Virus record (IMG/VR): IMGVR_UViG_3300046492_000315
Coordinates: 1 to 36,814 of that record
Direction: 5' to 3' (one strand)
Length of the DNA: 36,814 nt
Source of the DNA: a virus
Each line of letters starts with the position of its first letter. Position 1 is the stretch's first letter. The notes beneath the pieces were generated by a model, which did no database searches, had not been told where the DNA came from, and saw only the letters and a list, made by a program, of their open reading frames with translations. A program made the translations under genes and the position numbers. Of this stretch, positions 5,865 through 28,966 are shown piece by piece.

Positions 5865-6571
5865 TGAAGCTGATGCAGCTCTTCCTAAGCAATCAAGCGG
5901 CCCCACGTTCGGCCCGTATTGAGCAGGCCGGCCGCGAGGCGACCGTCTACATTTACGACATTATTGGCGGCGACTGGGGCGGTGTCGGTGCGCGGGATTT
6001 TGTCCCGCAACTGGTGGCCCTGGACGTGGACGTAATTCACCTTCGCATCAACTCCCCCGGTGGCGATGTGTTCGACGGCCGCACCATCGCGACCGCGCTG
6101 GCCCAACATCCGGCCCGTGTCATCGCCCACATCGACGGCCAAGCGGCCAGCGCTGCGACCTACGTCGCCCTGGCGGCCGATGAGGTAGAGATTGCCGAGG
6201 GCGGTTTTTTTATGATTCACAACGCCTGGACAATCGGCATTGGCAACGCGGACGAGTTCGTACAAACCGCCGAGCTGCTGCGCAAAGTGGACGCCAGTAT
6301 CGTTGCCGATTACCAGCGCAAGACCGGTAAGTCGGCCGATGAGCTGGCGGCCATGATGGCGGCCACGACTTGGTTCACCGCTGAGGAAGCGGTAGCCAAT
6401 GGCTTCGTCGACCGGATCGCAGCGGGCCAGAAGGCCGCACGCAACCAATGGAATTTGGCGGCCTACGGCAACGCGCCCGCCGCTCTGACTGAACCCCCTG
6501 AAACTGAACCAGTGTTCGACCGCGCCGCTCTTGAGCGCCGGTTGTCGCTGCTCGAAACCATCGCGCCATAG
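5864..6571 (+). CDS. Head maturation protease (ClpP/S14-like)
   Basis: The 235-residue serine protease of the ClpP fold processes the prohead. The oxyanion/substrate loop INSPGGDVFDG is present, the nucleophile is S96 in GQAASAATYVALA, and the general-base histidine is H119 in FMIHNAW. The acidic third residue lies in the following helix (VDASIVADYQRKTGKS), and the ClpP landmark ATTWFTAEEAVANGFVD follows. The start is ATG 5864, overlapping the portal stop (TAATG). No separate scaffold gene is present, so scaffolding may come from the capsid N-terminal delta domain, as in HK97. Confidence 0.93.
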   Translation: MKLMQLFLSNQAAPRSARIEQAGREATVYIYDIIGGDWGGVGARDFVPQLVALDVDVIHLRINSPGGDVFDGRTIATALAQHPARVIAHIDGQAASAATYVALAADEVEIAEGGFFMIHNAWTIGIGNADEFVQTAELLRKVDASIVADYQRKTGKSADELAAMMAATTWFTAEEAVANGFVDRIAAGQKAARNQWNLAAYGNAPAALTEPPETEPVFDRAALERRLSLLETIAP

Positions 6572-8659: not shown

Positions 8660-8985
8660 GACTGGGACCGCTCCGCCATCGCGTGACTTTTCAGTCGCGC
8701 AAGACTGGGCGCGATTCATACGGGCAACCCCTCGAAGGGTGGGATGACATCGCGACAGTGTGGGCGTCCGTCGAGCCGATCAGTGGCCGGGAGTTGCTGT
8801 CCGCGCAACAGGTCCAGGCCGAATTGACGCACCGTATACGCTGCCGGTATTTGCCTGGACTTGAGGCGGCTGATCGAATGCTTTTCGACAGCCGGGGCTT
8901 TGACCTGAAGTCGATTATCAACGCAATGGAAATTGGCGCGTCGCTTGAAATCCTGGCGACCGAGGGGCTGAGCGATGGCCGATGA
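8656..8985 (+). CDS. Head-tail adaptor / head closure protein
   Basis: The 109-residue protein matches the phage head-tail adaptor family (SPP1 gp16/HK97 gp7-like). It has an N-terminal LRHRVTFQSRKTGRDSYGQPL, then WASVEPISGRELLSAQQ and RIRCRYLPGLEAADRMLFD, and a C-terminal strand region with LEILATEGLSDG. It plugs the connector after packaging and provides the tail-docking surface. The ATG overlaps the upstream stop by 4 nt, and its end overlaps the next gene by 11 nt. Confidence 0.9.
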   Translation: MRLGPLRHRVTFQSRKTGRDSYGQPLEGWDDIATVWASVEPISGRELLSAQQVQAELTHRIRCRYLPGLEAADRMLFDSRGFDLKSIINAMEIGASLEILATEGLSDGR

Positions 8986-9481
8986 GATAAATGTCCTGGG
9001 GCTGCGCGAAATCAAAGCGACCCTGGAAAAATTGCCGGCCCGGCTGGGTGAAAAAGTCTTGCGTGCAGCGTTGCGCGCTGGCGCTCAAGTCATCCGCAAG
9101 GACGCACAAGCGCGCGCGCCGGTCCTGAAGAAGCCAGCGTATGGCCGCAAGCCCGGCACCGTGAGAAGTGCCATCACCATCAAGCGCTCGAAGCGGGATA
9201 AATTCGGCGTGTACCTGACCGTCAAAGGATTGAGCGCCAAAAAGATTAAAGAGTTCAAAGGCGGCAAGGCGAAGAAGAACGCGGCCTACAATCCCGACGA
9301 CCCCTGGTACTGGCACTTCCTCGAATTCGGAACGGCCAAGATGCCGGCCCATCCGTTCCTCCGCCCGGCATTCGAGGCGCAGAAGTTCGCAGCGCTGCGT
9401 CGGTTTGAGGAATTCGCGAAACGTCGCATTGCGCGTGAGGCTGAAAAGCTGGCGCGTGAGCAGGGGAGTAAAGCCGCATGA
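8975..9481 (+). CDS. HK97 gp10-like tail completion protein
   Basis: The 168-residue basic protein has the pattern of the HK97-gp10 family: GLREIKATLEKLPARLGEKVL, then RAGAQVIRKDAQARAPV, DDPWYWHFLEFGTAKMPAHPFLRPAFEAQ and a helical C-terminus rich in Arg and Lys. Family members sit at the head-tail joint and complete the tail end that meets the connector. Overlaps with both neighbours indicate coupled translation. Confidence 0.9.
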   Translation: MADEINVLGLREIKATLEKLPARLGEKVLRAALRAGAQVIRKDAQARAPVLKKPAYGRKPGTVRSAITIKRSKRDKFGVYLTVKGLSAKKIKEFKGGKAKKNAAYNPDDPWYWHFLEFGTAKMPAHPFLRPAFEAQKFAALRRFEEFAKRRIAREAEKLAREQGSKAA

Positions 9482-9846
9482 TTGAAATCGACTTGCGTGC
9501 GGCAATGCTCGCCGCCTCCGCCGTCACCGCGCTGGTCGGCCAACGGATCGCGGCCGGGGTTTTGCCAGAGGGCGAGGTGCGCCCATACGTGACGTATTCA
9601 CTGGTCACGGGTGAGCGCATTCCGTCCATGACTGATTCGGGTCTGATGCGGCACGCCCGTATGCAGGTGAATTGTTGGTCGCCAAGTTACGGCGAGGCCA
9701 AGCAGATCGCGCTCGCGGTGCAAACCGCCATCGAGGCCAGCGCGCTGTTCGAGGTGGTGTTCATCAGCGACCAGGATTTATACGACCCCGAGACGAATCT
9801 GTTTTATATGGTGCTGGACTATTCGGTGTGGCAGGTGACCGCCTAA
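9478..9846 (+). CDS. Tail completion/terminator protein (DUF3168, SPP1 gp17-like)
   Basis: The 122-residue protein has the DUF3168 pattern: an N-terminal helix (LRAAMLAASAVTALVGQRIAAG), then RPYVTYSLVTGERI, RMQVNCWSPSYGEAKQIALAVQTAIEA and a strand region LYDPETNLFYMVLDYSVW. It terminates tail-tube growth and joins the tail to the head. It is the last gene before the reverse-strand moron and overlaps its upstream neighbour by 4 nt. Confidence 0.9.
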   Translation: MIEIDLRAAMLAASAVTALVGQRIAAGVLPEGEVRPYVTYSLVTGERIPSMTDSGLMRHARMQVNCWSPSYGEAKQIALAVQTAIEASALFEVVFISDQDLYDPETNLFYMVLDYSVWQVTA

Positions 9847-9860
9847 GTCGCGGGCGCCGC

Positions 9861-10535
9861 TCATGGTTTCCATTCCGGGTTATCCCACACGACCAACCCG
9901 TTTCTCTCTGGCGTGAGCGAGCGTGAGAAAAGCGCGTCGCTCTCGTGGACGATATAGGGCAGGTCCAGCAATGGCTTGTGCTGGTGAACGGATAGGTTGC
10001 CGACGAATATATAGCGTCTGATCTGGCTGAGCATTGCCACCTCATCGACGCCTATCACGTTGCCTCCACGCTGGTGTTCCGCTGCGTTGTATATGTGTGT
10101 GACCCACGCGGCGACCACTACCTCTGGCCGATGCCGGGCCACTGCTGCCTCGGCGTCCAGGCGTTCGACGTGCGGGCCATAGGTGACAACCGGCTGGCGC
10201 ATTGATCGATACAGGGCAATCACTGCCGGGTCTTCTTGCATGTGGTTATCAGTGCAGGGAATGCCGAGGGCTTTGCCGAGTACACCGTTCCCGCTGCCGA
10301 TCTCAATAGCGGAGCGGGTAGGGCTCGCCTCTAGAATCAACTCGTTGATCTTATCGACCAGCTCGACCGTGGGCAGACAGTACAGACCGTGACGCAGGCA
10401 AAAGCCGGACAGGTCCGCTTGTGAGAACTGCGCATAAAAGTCCATCGGCACCACGCGCAGCACACCGCTGTCCAGGGCTTGGGCATCGAGCGCGTCTTGT
10501 GCGCCCTGGCTGACTCTCAGAATCGAAGTGTTCAT
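9861..10535 (-). CDS. Moron: class I SAM-dependent methyltransferase-like protein
   Basis: The 224-residue protein is encoded against the direction of the surrounding tail operon. Residues 76-84 (AIEIGSGNG) match motif I of Rossmann-fold SAM methyltransferases, followed by VLGKALGIPCTDNHMQ and a VVVAAWVTHIYNAAEH segment at a motif-IV-like position. No DPPY-type DNA or rRNA motif is present, so the substrate cannot be named. The gene has its own promoter and lies between tail genes, the mark of a moron, possibly expressed in the lysogen. ATG 10535 has AGGT upstream. A longer frame to 10616 would run over the promoter and is rejected. Confidence 0.75.
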   Translation of the reverse strand: MNTSILRVSQGAQDALDAQALDSGVLRVVPMDFYAQFSQADLSGFCLRHGLYCLPTVELVDKINELILEASPTRSAIEIGSGNGVLGKALGIPCTDNHMQEDPAVIALYRSMRQPVVTYGPHVERLDAEAAVARHRPEVVVAAWVTHIYNAAEHQRGGNVIGVDEVAMLSQIRRYIFVGNLSVHQHKPLLDLPYIVHESDALFSRSLTPERNGLVVWDNPEWKP

Positions 10536-10572
10536 AACCGGACCTGTATTGGCGGAGAGGATTGGCCGCCAA

Positions 10573-10601
10573 TCATATAACAAAAGTTTTTGCCCAACAA
10601 A
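10573..10601 (-). promoter_or_regulatory. Moron promoter with repressor-operator-like site
   Basis: On the reverse strand TTGTTG (-35, about 10596-10601) and TATGAT (-10, 10573-10578) are separated by 17 bp, upstream of the methyltransferase-like gene. The spacer overlaps ATAACAAAAGTTTTT (10577-10591), which differs by two bases from the putative operator at 28613-28627. The promoter call is by consensus; operator function is inference. Confidence 0.5.
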
Positions 10602-10637
10602 ACACGCCCAAACCAAAACCCCCCAACCGTCACGGAT

Positions 10638-10672
10638 AACCCCATTAGCGTCACGCTCCTGGGGTTTTTTTA
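10638..10672 (+). terminator. Terminator upstream of the tail tube gene
   Basis: An outer stem (AACCCC with GGGGTT) and an inner stem (AGCG/CGCT, loop TCA) are followed by a T-run to 10671. It would stop + strand transcripts entering from the head genes, 15 bp before the tail tube start, and resembles the hairpin in front of the capsid gene. Confidence 0.7.
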
Positions 10673-10687
10673 TTTGGAGAAAACCTC

Positions 10688-11347
10688 ATGGCTACTAAAT
10701 CCCGCGCGGTGTCTTCGCAGGGCACTCACTTCTATATCGAGAACGCAGGTGCCACGCTGGTGACGACTGCGATCACTGGTATTTCCAAGGCGGCGAAGGC
10801 CGTGGTCACATTCGCCTCGCATACCTATGTCGTGGGTGATGTGCTGACCTTTGCTGCTGTGGTCGGCATGACCGAAATGAACGGCCTGGACGGTATCGTC
10901 AGCGCGAAGACCGCCACCACTGTGACCCTGGAGAACATCGACTCGACCGGGTTCACCACCTATGGCTCGGCCGGTACTGCCGGCCTGGTGCAATTTATTG
11001 AGACGTGCCAACACAAGTCCTATTCGGGCTTCGATGGGCAGGCGTCGGAAATCGACACGACCACGCTGTGCTCGACCGCGAAGGAAAAAGTCCTCGGCCT
11101 GCAAGATTTCGGCGGCATGTCGACGGACATTCATTACGTTGAGGACGATCCGTTCCAGGTAGAGGCCAAAGTCGCCAAGCGTGCCGGCCTGCCGCGCTGG
11201 TTCAAGCTGGTCAAGAAAAATAACTACATCAAAATTTTCGAAGGCTATGTGCGGTCGGTCAGTGATTCCGGCGCAGTCGATGGGACCAACGCCGGCACGA
11301 TGGCCGTAACCATCACAGGCGACGTGTATGAGGTGGCCGGTGCTTAA
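10688..11347 (+). CDS. Major tail tube protein
   Basis: The 219-residue tube subunit begins MATKSRAVSSQGTHFYIEN and has the phage tail-tube pattern FSGFDGQ/DTTTLCSTAKEKVLGLQDFGGMS, then a C-terminal IKIFEGYVRSVSDSGAVDG and TMAVTITGDVYEV. It polymerises in rings around the tape measure. A strong SD (TGGAGAAAA) lies upstream after a terminator hairpin. It is followed by the chaperone gene, which overlaps its last codons. Residues about 30-80 (a VVTFASHTYVVGDVLTFAAV segment) look like a small inserted beta domain. Confidence 0.92.
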   Translation: MATKSRAVSSQGTHFYIENAGATLVTTAITGISKAAKAVVTFASHTYVVGDVLTFAAVVGMTEMNGLDGIVSAKTATTVTLENIDSTGFTTYGSAGTAGLVQFIETCQHKSYSGFDGQASEIDTTTLCSTAKEKVLGLQDFGGMSTDIHYVEDDPFQVEAKVAKRAGLPRWFKLVKKNNYIKIFEGYVRSVSDSGAVDGTNAGTMAVTITGDVYEVAGA

Positions 11348-23035: not shown

Positions 23036-23064
23036 TGTGTACCGTCCATCGGTGGAGGCGTCAA
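23036..23064 (-). promoter_or_regulatory. Candidate promoter for the accessory cassette
   Basis: On the reverse strand TTGACG (23059-23064) and TACACA (23036-23041) are 17 bp apart, about 70 bp upstream of the 22964 start. The -35 is good and the -10 is weak. It lies inside the stretch of GGTAC-type motifs near attP, so integrase binding could influence it. Confidence 0.4.
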
Positions 23065-23152
23065 TACCGTAGGTTATTTTTTTTGCCCCCTGGCCGACTT
23101 GACAGGTACGTCGGCCGATAGGGTACGGGGCCGGTCGCCCTGGTGCAACGAT

Positions 23153-23173
23153 GGTACAAATTTGGTACATCGG
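23153..23173 (+). repeat. 21-bp direct repeat, left of attP core (arm-type site)
   Basis: GGTACAAATTTGGTACAT then CGG occurs here and again, identical, at 23383-23403. The copies lie on opposite sides of the tRNA-like attP core. Paired repeats flanking the core are typical arm-type binding sites of tyrosine integrases. Each unit itself contains two TTTGGTAC/GGTAC elements. Confidence 0.7.
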
Positions 23174-23382: not shown

Positions 23383-23403
23383 GGTACAAATTTGGTACAT
23401 CGG
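23383..23403 (+). repeat. 21-bp direct repeat, right of attP core (arm-type site)
   Basis: This is identical to 23153-23173. It lies 55 bp upstream of the int ATG, so integrase bound here could also repress its own gene. Confidence 0.7.
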
Positions 23404-27719: not shown

Positions 27720-27761
27720 AGAATATCCCAACCATAACCCATGTCAATAACTTAGGTTATT
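27720..27761 (-). promoter_or_regulatory. PL promoter and operator OL
   Basis: On the reverse strand a perfect -35 TTGACA (27742-27747) and -10 TATTCT (27720-27725) are 16 bp apart. The palindromic site ATAACTTAGGTTATT (27747-27761) abuts the -35. Its AAC-N5-GTTATT core is shared with sites at 28613-28627 and 28668-28682. A repressor bound here would block leftward early transcription. Confidence 0.7.
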
Positions 27762-27880: not shown

Positions 27881-28600
27881 TCAGGGCTCGAAGTAGCGAG
27901 TGCCTTTGAGAATCCCGGCGACGTAGTGAATCCCTTCAATATTTTCGGCCGCAACATGGATCGGCTTGTGGTCCTCGTTGATCGACTCGAAGCGGTAGAA
28001 CCCGTCCTTCAAACCGCAAAAAACTTTAATCATCTTGCGCCCGTCGCTGGTGATGACCAGTACATCCTCATGCAGGATCAGCGACTGGTTCGGCTCTATC
28101 ACCACATACTCCCCGTGTTTGATGCGCGGGCTCATGCTGTCGCCTTTTACCCTCAGACCGTAGGCGTCCGGGTCGTCACTGTGAATCTTTAGAAACCCTG
28201 ACGGGCCGCCGTCCCCGTCAAAATAACCATCGTCGCCAAGCTGTGCGATTCCGACCACTGGCACCAACCCCTTTTTGAGTTTGCGTTCTTCCGTGTCCGT
28301 GTTGGACGGCTGTTCCGCCGCTGGACCAACATCGACCACTGTAGTTGTGGTCAGGGAAAAACGCGAACTGTCCTCGCCGTGGGCCAGCCATTCGACGGTG
28401 ACGCCCAAGGCTCTGGCGATGTCTGGCAGGCGCTTGGATTGGAGGGTTTTGCCGGAGGTTATTTTCTGGATCGCGACCTGTGAAAGGGGCAGGCCGCTGA
28501 CTTCGCCAACCAGTCTTGCGAGCTGAAGCTGCGTCAGATTACGGGCGGCCATCGAGGTTTTAAGCCTATCGGCCAGGGTAGGGGGAGTGGTCGTATTCAT
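27881..28600 (-). CDS. CI-like repressor with S24 (LexA-like) domain
   Basis: The 239-residue lysogeny repressor has an N-terminal HTH (LTQLQLARLVGEVSGLPLSQ then VAIQKITSGKT, about 22-53), a linker, and a C-terminal S24 domain with catalytic S155 (KGDSMSPRIKHGEY) and K192 (RKMIKVF). The segment where the self-cleavage bond normally lies reads VVGIAQLGDDGY, that is A119-Q120 and not the usual Ala-Gly or Cys-Gly, so RecA-stimulated cleavage is in doubt. ATG 28600 is used. It has no SD and follows the PRM -10 by 7 nt, so the transcript is probably leaderless. Divergent from Cro. Confidence 0.92.
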   Translation of the reverse strand: MNTTTPPTLADRLKTSMAARNLTQLQLARLVGEVSGLPLSQVAIQKITSGKTLQSKRLPDIARALGVTVEWLAHGEDSSRFSLTTTTVVDVGPAAEQPSNTDTEERKLKKGLVPVVGIAQLGDDGYFDGDGGPSGFLKIHSDDPDAYGLRVKGDSMSPRIKHGEYVVIEPNQSLILHEDVLVITSDGRKMIKVFCGLKDGFYRFESINEDHKPIHVAAENIEGIHYVAGILKGTRYFEP

Positions 28601-28607
28601 GCGCAAA

Positions 28608-28637
28608 ACTATATAACAAATGTTATTGGTCAGGCAA
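28608..28637 (-). promoter_or_regulatory. PRM promoter with operator in its spacer
   Basis: On the reverse strand TTGCCT (-35, 28632-28637) and TATAGT (-10, 28608-28613) are 18 bp apart, with operator-like ATAACAAATGTTATT (28613-28627) between them. Only 7 nt separate the -10 from the repressor ATG, predicting a leaderless mRNA as for lambda cI from PRM. Confidence 0.65.
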
Positions 28638-28656: not shown

Positions 28657-28684
28657 TTGACGGCTCGAAAACCTAGGTTATTAT
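28657..28684 (+). promoter_or_regulatory. PR promoter with operator
   Basis: TTGACG (-35, 28657-28662) and TATTAT (-10, 28679-28684) are 16 bp apart. The operator-like AAAACCTAGGTTATT (28668-28682) covers the spacer and -10. A further inverted repeat TATCGT...ACGATA (28682-28687, 28697-28702) lies in the leader before cro. Confidence 0.7.
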
Positions 28685-28714: not shown

Positions 28715-28966
28715 ATGATGGACCGAGAACGCCCGATTGACCGAGCGGTTCGCCTCGCTCAAGAGCGCCCCATTGACCGAGCGGTTCGCCTCGCCGGGGG
28801 GCAGGCCGAACTAGCCCGCTTATGCGGGACCAGCCAACCGCGCATCTGGCAATGCGTACACCGCAATTTGAATGTGCCGGCTGAGCTGGTGCTGAAAATT
28901 GAGCGCGCCGTCAATGGTGCTGTGACTCGCTCCGAGTTGCGGCCCGATCTCTATCCGGTCGAATAA
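28715..28966 (+). CDS. Cro-like repressor (YdaS-type HTH) with duplicated N-terminus
   Basis: The 83-residue protein is the first gene of the PR operon. The YdaS/Cro pattern is PIDRAVRLAGGQAELARLCG, then TSQPRIWQCVHRN, PAELVLKIERAVNGAVTRSE and LRPDLYP. The first 12 residues of the usual fold (ERPIDRAVRLAQ) are present twice in tandem, encoded by a 36-bp duplication (perfect 23-bp core at 28736-28758 and 28772-28794). AGGTGG (28704-28709) fits ATG 28715. It should bind the same operators as CI to commit to lysis. Confidence 0.88.
   Translation: MMDRERPIDRAVRLAQERPIDRAVRLAGGQAELARLCGTSQPRIWQCVHRNLNVPAELVLKIERAVNGAVTRSELRPDLYPVE

Follow-up and report, generated by a model that had tools for sequence, protein, structure and literature searches.

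In the window, by which we mean the whole 36,814-nt stretch of DNA that was analyzed, a reverse-strand gene interrupts the tail operon, as the initial annotation had stated. It is flanked by plus-strand genes assigned through PHROGs to a tail terminator and a major tail protein; the interval between these two genes is referred to below as the slot, and the genes that it carries as cargo. The minus-strand open reading frame is open from a TTG at 10616 to 9861. Because relatives align from a conserved ATG at 10535, that ATG was taken as the start codon; position 10601, given as the start in the initial annotation, falls within the leader. The features of the slot are as follows.

9478 to 9846, plus strand: tail terminator gene, bordering the slot on the left (PHROG 78, E = 2.5e-11)
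9861 to 10535, minus strand: slot cargo, a gene whose product is predicted to have a class I SAM-methyltransferase fold (224 aa; open reading frame and conserved ATG)
10572 to 10577, minus strand: −10 element TATGAT, at a constant register relative to the dyad across 7/7 non-redundant slot leaders
10577 to 10590, no strand assigned: dyad of the CI operator class, ATAAC-AAAA-GTTTT, between the slot −35 and −10, with one base in common with the −10
10595 to 10600, minus strand: weak −35 element TTGTTG (3/6 consensus), not conserved between lineages
10638 to 10671, plus strand: terminator-like hairpin followed by T7, for rightward transcription (RNA fold −18.3 kcal/mol, z −2.0)
10688 to 11347, plus strand: major tail protein gene, bordering the slot on the right (PHROG 584, E = 1.4e-24)

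The promoter had been described as TTGTTG, 17 bases, and TATGAT. Both hexamers are present at that spacing (10600-10595 and 10577-10572), but the −35 agrees with the consensus at only three of six positions, and a consensus promoter scan reported none above threshold. Among relatives the slot −10 is conserved and the −35 is not. Neither a pattern scan nor RNA folding found a terminator 3′ of the cargo gene; the only terminator-like hairpin is that on the opposite strand, which lies immediately upstream of the major tail gene and falls under the criteria of the pattern scan.

As to the host, two genome-contig scans and the annotated phage collection yielded no relative, and weak similarity to Pseudomonas phages was limited to the integrase region of the window. 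By the integrase, GGTACAAATTTGGTACATCGG occurs twice (23153-23173 and 23383-23403), bracketing a stretch that resembles a tRNA 3′ end (GGTTCAAATCCC...). These repeats are possibly integrase arm sites around attP; ARAGORN reported no complete tRNA.

Methyltransferase-like protein and its relatives

The gene product had been called methyltransferase-like from the DNA alone, and the structure searches bear this out. Its AlphaFold2 model, built with 33 viral sequences (pLDDT 95.5, pTM 0.92), predicts with high confidence a class I SAM-dependent methyltransferase fold, Rossmann-like β/α over the whole domain. The best 50 VIA-align matches were SAM-methyltransferase-type folds with Z scores of 8.3 to 9.8 over 129 to 176 residues, headed by 7pd7 (Z 9.8, 148 residues aligned, rmsd 4.3), and the best Foldseek matches were HemK (1t43, E = 1.4e-4), TrmA, 3gnl, and KsgA. 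Motif I reads E78-x-G-x-G-x-G. Residues E78, G80, G82, and G84 and the acid after strand 2, D96, are invariant in 33/33 sequences; in a wider set E78, G82, G84, and D96 are invariant (35/35) and G80 is nearly so. The DPPY motif is missing, as first noted, and the motif IV position is occupied by W144-V-T-H147, in which W144 and T146 are nearly invariant.

Several more specific assignments were considered and rejected. A DNA methyltransferase is disfavored by the lack of (D/N/S)PP(Y/F) and of any Pfam match, and an amino-methylating enzyme acting on DNA or protein and carrying that motif is disfavored by WVTH in its place. A defense gene was set aside, there being no PADLOC match. The structure does not single out a substrate, since the top VIA-align matches within 1 Z mix enzymes acting on rRNA, tRNA, protein, and small molecules. 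The window protein matched 0 families in Pfam, PHROGs, NCBIfam, and PADLOC, the 35 family members gave single stray matches only against curated families, and profile searches of solved structures gave nothing significant. No description of the family exists in Pfam, PHROGs, or NCBIfam, and the annotated phage collection contained no relative of it.

The gene is encoded at 68 to 97% identity in six viral contigs, and broader scans yielded 8 and then 40 loci with relatives, down to 27% identity. One distant member (L045, 9896-10792) has a C-terminal extension of roughly 80 residues. Plasmid relatives were found in 20 records, with 14 matches covering at least 80%; they are annotated as "hypothetical protein," with "SAM-dependent methyltransferase" appearing in two weak partial matches, and the eight plasmid regions inspected had no shared neighbor that we could see. 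On plasmid pBASL58 of Pseudomonas sp. Leaf58 (L048), a 57% relative lies about 1.3 kb after genes for a TROVE-domain protein and an RtcR-type regulator, so that it adjoins an RNA-repair-like locus.

Outside the slot, the 30 methyltransferase loci (L009, L018, and L020 to L047) included two, L009 and L018, in which the same cargo families stand in a row, GNAT-like and CYCYK-like genes among them, and in which the methyltransferase gene follows others on its own strand (CYCYK is the name given here to a protein of about 112 aa with a CYCYK motif). In L009 an O-like replication gene stands on the same strand, about 3 kb upstream of the methyltransferase gene. The operon in these two loci is probably early lytic, and the presence of the cargo families in a row near the O-like gene fits an early lytic role. 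A small protein family (FLGLDH..FETMIFG), first seen in L009 at 6061-6459, has a member no more than about 3.5 kb from the methyltransferase in 12/30 non-slot loci (L009 and 11 others); its L009 member has no Pfam or PHROG match. In L119, relatives of the GNAT, FLG, and CYCYK proteins occur together. The co-occurrence of these companions in L009, L018, and L119 indicates that the slot cargo families travel together elsewhere too. Around the distant relatives, 78 neighbors compared with Pfam and PHROGs contained no recurrent functional family, the most frequent being a CxxCxxCC protein (3/78); these 78 were drawn from 109, the 31 omitted being mostly short opposite-strand frames and near-duplicate loci, with one frame of 2033 aa.

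Operator dyad in the slot and in the immunity region

The immunity region of the window contains the following features.

27747 to 27760, no strand assigned: PL operator, perfect dyad
27881 to 28600, minus strand: cI-type repressor gene (Pfam HTH_3 and Peptidase_S24)
28613 to 28626, no strand assigned: PRM (cI promoter) operator, perfect dyad, with the −10 placed relative to it as in the slot
28668 to 28681, no strand assigned: PR operator, one mismatch (TTGACG, 16 bases, TATTAT)
28715 to 28966, plus strand: gene in the Cro position, YdaS-like HTH (PF15943, E = 7.7e-21)

The operator unit is a 14-bp dyad, ATAAC-N4-GTTAT, which is perfect at 27747 and 28613 and has one mismatch at 28668, 10577, and 23064. 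The initial annotation had drawn attention to the slot site as a repressor-like operator two mismatches from that at PRM, and this comparison stands (ATAACAAAAGTTTTT at 10577-10591 versus 28613-28627 at the cI promoter); operator-like sites with up to three mismatches number four in all, compared with 0.24 expected. Scored with a matrix of 10 immunity operators, 10577 ranks fourth in the window with 21.0 bits, below the three immunity operators at PL, PRM, and PR (scores of 24.9, 23.1, and 23.05 bits) and well clear of the fifth at 13.6. The same rank (4 of 36,801 positions, 20.7 bits, with the fifth at 13.0) was obtained with a second matrix built from six immunity operators of two other phages only (G005 and G012), leaving out the window's own sites. 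The PR, PRM, and PL operators of a further phage, G016, are the same 14-mers as those of G012. A site as good as 10577 occurred in 0/60 random genomes, generated as order-1 Markov sequences and not as exact shuffles. By sequence, the dyad at the gene is of the immunity-operator class, and CI or Cro would be expected to bind at 10577-10590.

The match between slot and repressor could be followed into related phages. A filled slot and a related cI are both readable in four phages, namely the window, G005 (cI 65% identical), G012 (63%), and G016 (62%). The HTH stretch SQVAIQKITSGKT is identical in all four cI proteins, and each of the four phages has PL, PR, and PRM operators of the same class. 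All three immunity operators are kept in cI relatives at 96 to 97% identity (L011 to L014), in a distant one at 64% (L015), and in L053 and L079. In L015, TTAACTTAAGTTTT at 8897-8910 scores 15.3 bits about 1 kb to the lytic side of the G005 cI operators and is a possible extra operator.

Two further observations concern the window itself. The fifth, weaker dyad, ATACCGTAGGTTAT at 23064-23077 (13.0 to 13.6 bits), lies upstream of the integrase region and has an identical copy in the close relative L011 at 15730. At the start of the gene in the Cro position, 28736-28795 is a tandem near-duplication in which ATTGACCGAGCGGTTCGCCTCGC occurs twice.

Relatives of the methyltransferase-like gene carry the dyad as well. 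In L006/L063 (68% identity) the upstream DNA is unrelated to that of the window, yet a perfect dyad, ATAACGGTTGTTAT, stands at the −10. The relatives in L016, L017, and L019 (70 to 74%) have ATTACTTTTGTTAT at the same place in different surroundings, and L008 (61%) has AAAACAAATGTTGT, with two mismatches. L009 and L018 (57 to 60%), the probable early operons, had no dyad above 8 bits.

The operator belongs to an exchangeable slot

Twenty-one loci were recovered when the major tail protein was used as the query; the contigs used here are for the most part metagenomic fragments. Sixteen had a filled slot, with leftward genes between the tail terminator and major tail genes, four had an empty one, and one was cut off (L075, which starts inside the tail gene, shows no slot, and was dropped from later counts). 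In three of the 16 (L060, L062, and L064), the contig end cuts inside the slot. In the four empty slots (L073, L074, L076, and L077), 48 to 77 bp separate the tail terminator and major tail genes; the flanking genes of the window gene are thus adjacent in four relatives without cargo, as they should be for a moron. When an alignment of 11 tail-protein sequences was used for a wider scan, 22 loci were obtained, comprising the earlier relatives and two distant ones, L098 and L099, in which neither a tail terminator nor cargo was recognized. The cargo varies as follows.

Methyltransferase alone: window, L059, L078
Methyltransferase and CYCYK: L058, L071
Methyltransferase and DUF4262: L063, L069, L070
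CYCYK alone: L061
CYCYK and DUF4262: L065, L068, L072
CYCYK and GNAT-like protein: L066, L067

The DUF4262 assignment is firm (E = 4.1e-25) and the GNAT match has an E value of only 0.005. The two ends of the G012 contig (L019 and L101) between them hold methyltransferase, CYCYK, and DUF4262 genes. An aca-like HTH gene was not seen in the slot, which in the window consists of one gene; representative CYCYK, DUF4262, and GNAT-like proteins had no HTH match.

In 16/16 other filled slots, no site in the locus scores higher than the one in the slot leader, which is 73 to 97 bp before the tail gene and has 14.8 to 21.4 bits; elsewhere in those loci the best score was 10.3 or lower. The dyad was absent from the empty slots (4/4), where the best score was −8 or lower. 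The slot dyads have one or two mismatches in 15 of the 16 and one in the window, and only that of L063 is perfect. The operator accordingly belongs to the exchangeable slot and its −10, not to one gene. Four empty-slot contigs gave a best cI match of 34% identity in one and none in three, which proves little because the contigs may be fragments; the other filled-slot contigs, mostly short and without a cI match, carry no weight in this respect.

The 16 filled slots are not independent of one another. Clustering at 80% ungapped identity reduced the 17 leaders (window included) to seven, of which those of L066 and L067 are still near relatives. Across these seven, conservation is 0.89 in the half-sites, 0.79 in the N4 spacer, and 0.57 in the flanks, and positions A1, A4, and C5 of the left half-site are kept in 7/7 while neighboring bases vary. 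When three thousand random leaders were generated as order-1 Markov sequences of matching composition, the observed score was reached by 0 to 0.4% of them, and 53 control loci (770 kb; GC 0.23 to 0.69) contained 18 sites of at least 14.7 bits, mostly in AT-rich loci. A lone weak slot site (14.8 bits) is therefore little proof; recurrence at one place is proof.

Possible control of the slot and comparison with known systems

We consider the most probable explanation, to which we give odds of about two in three (0.68), to be that the repressor of the phage itself controls the accessory slot, which is switched on at low CI. The methyltransferase-like gene would be the current occupant of a slot that carries its own leftward promoter, with the CI-immunity-class operator in the spacer. 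A CI dimer on the dyad would span the spacer to the −10 and exclude RNA polymerase. Cargo transcription would be low while CI is plentiful, as in an established lysogen, and would rise when CI is scarce, as upon cell entry or induction; Cro and opposing late transcription would then end it. In this way the slot is probably tied to the decision between dormancy and growth. Repression may be partial because the slot operators are mostly imperfect, and the weakness of the −35 is a further point against this reading.

The layout of the promoter bears on the main alternative. At both the slot and PRM, the final base of the dyad is also the first of a −10-like hexamer (slot, TATGAT, TAAGAT, TATAAT, and TATAAT; PRM, TATAGT, TAAATT, TACAAT, and TAGAAT). 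At PR the −10 begins two bases earlier, with TTGACG or TTGACT 16 bases upstream, and at PL the dyad extends into the −35. The slot layout thus resembles that of the cI promoter, not PR. It may be, then, that the slot promoter is a look-alike of PRM, with the cargo on in the lysogen, tracking cI through negative autoregulation, and turned off by Cro in lytic growth; the gene would then be a true lysogeny-expressed moron. This alternative is clearly the less probable of the two and keeps a quarter of the weight, chiefly because of the shared layout; the PRM-type register counts against repression in the lysogen because PRM must work there. The slot N4 spacers point the same way, being mostly A/T-rich (TTTT, ATTT, and AAAT, with GGTT in L063) and closer to that of PRM in the window (ATTT) than to those of PR and PL (CTAG and CTAA), and the slot half-sites are weaker than those of PRM, which would make the slots at least as leaky. 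Reverse orientation within lytic genes is also reported to be typical of accessory genes (PMC7067206). However, the same cargo families occur in the probable early lytic operon of L009 and L018, the terminator expected 3′ of a lysogen-expressed gene was not found, and slot and PRM are modestly alike beyond the dyad (4 to 7 of 10 bases downstream, 5 to 11 of 30 upstream).

It is improbable that the dyad resembles CI operators only by coincidence or shared promoter ancestry, being in fact bound by a different regulator or no more than a promoter shape (GTTATA-NNAT). The right half-site does partly overlap the −10, and slot and PRM promoters might share one ancestor without repressor control having been kept, but the three positions invariant in the left half-site belong to no promoter element, and the match extends to immunity operators of other phages. 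An ordinary moron with an unrelated constitutive promoter and a chance operator match is scarcely credible: the motif is short and A/T-rich, with single 14.8-bit sites in up to 0.4% of random leaders, but the slot census, with the dyad in all other filled slots and in seven non-redundant leaders, already made this unlikely, and together with the matrix lacking the window's sites it led us to reject it.

As to the role of the cargo, our guess is that the methyltransferase has a host-directed or counter-defense target; the early-operon homes of the cargo families favor early action, and counter-defense is the most natural guess by likeness to acr loci. More tentatively still, CI may govern a plug-in socket for genes directed against the host or its defenses, with whatever cargo comes to lie behind the operator in the tail operon timed like an early gene, the methyltransferase, CYCYK, DUF4262, and GNAT-like proteins forming a new counter-defense or host takeover set; we regard this broader proposal as doubtful. 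If repressor control of the slot is correct, a temperate phage exchanges accessory genes with control retained, the socket keeping its operator as the cargo changes, and an immunity-class operator outside the immunity region would be a searchable signature for early-acting accessory genes in metagenomic phages. The analysis also names a conserved, uncharacterized methyltransferase family. Literature searches did not turn up a description of an immunity operator at a tail-operon moron, which is not proof of absence in print.

The nearest annotated repressors are those of the 933W/phi24B type, to which the window cI is about 40% identical over its full length; the likeness is one of protein sequence, and in the window PL, PR, and PRM each have a single observed operator. 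Cluster A mycobacteriophages likewise have immunity repressor sites outside the immunity region, their stoperators, but these are more than twenty asymmetric sites, located also in short intergenic spaces and stopping elongation (PMC9283540), whereas the window has one symmetric site at one promoter. The P22 pid gene, a moron, is likewise an accessory gene of the late region that has no effect in the lysogen (PMC3573128); unlike the behavior proposed here, its effect is also absent in strict lytic growth and is seen in the carrier state, and the word "operator" is absent from the main text of that paper. The acr-aca loci share with the slot exchangeable small genes and a conserved inverted repeat within the core promoter, which in acr-aca loci a repressor binds, and acr operons are reported to be strongly transcribed early (PMC9410906). 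Here the operator belongs to the class used by the immunity repressor of the phage and no aca-like HTH gene was recognized in the slot, so the likeness suggested is one in the way of working, not of membership. As in the lambdoid morons, an extra reverse-oriented gene, here with a putative promoter of its own, stands between genes that are neighbors in relatives. Expression in lysogens is the behavior described for morons (PMC7067206), whereas a slot promoter with an immunity-class operator would be expected to give low or tuned expression there, and here several genes share and exchange one promoter.
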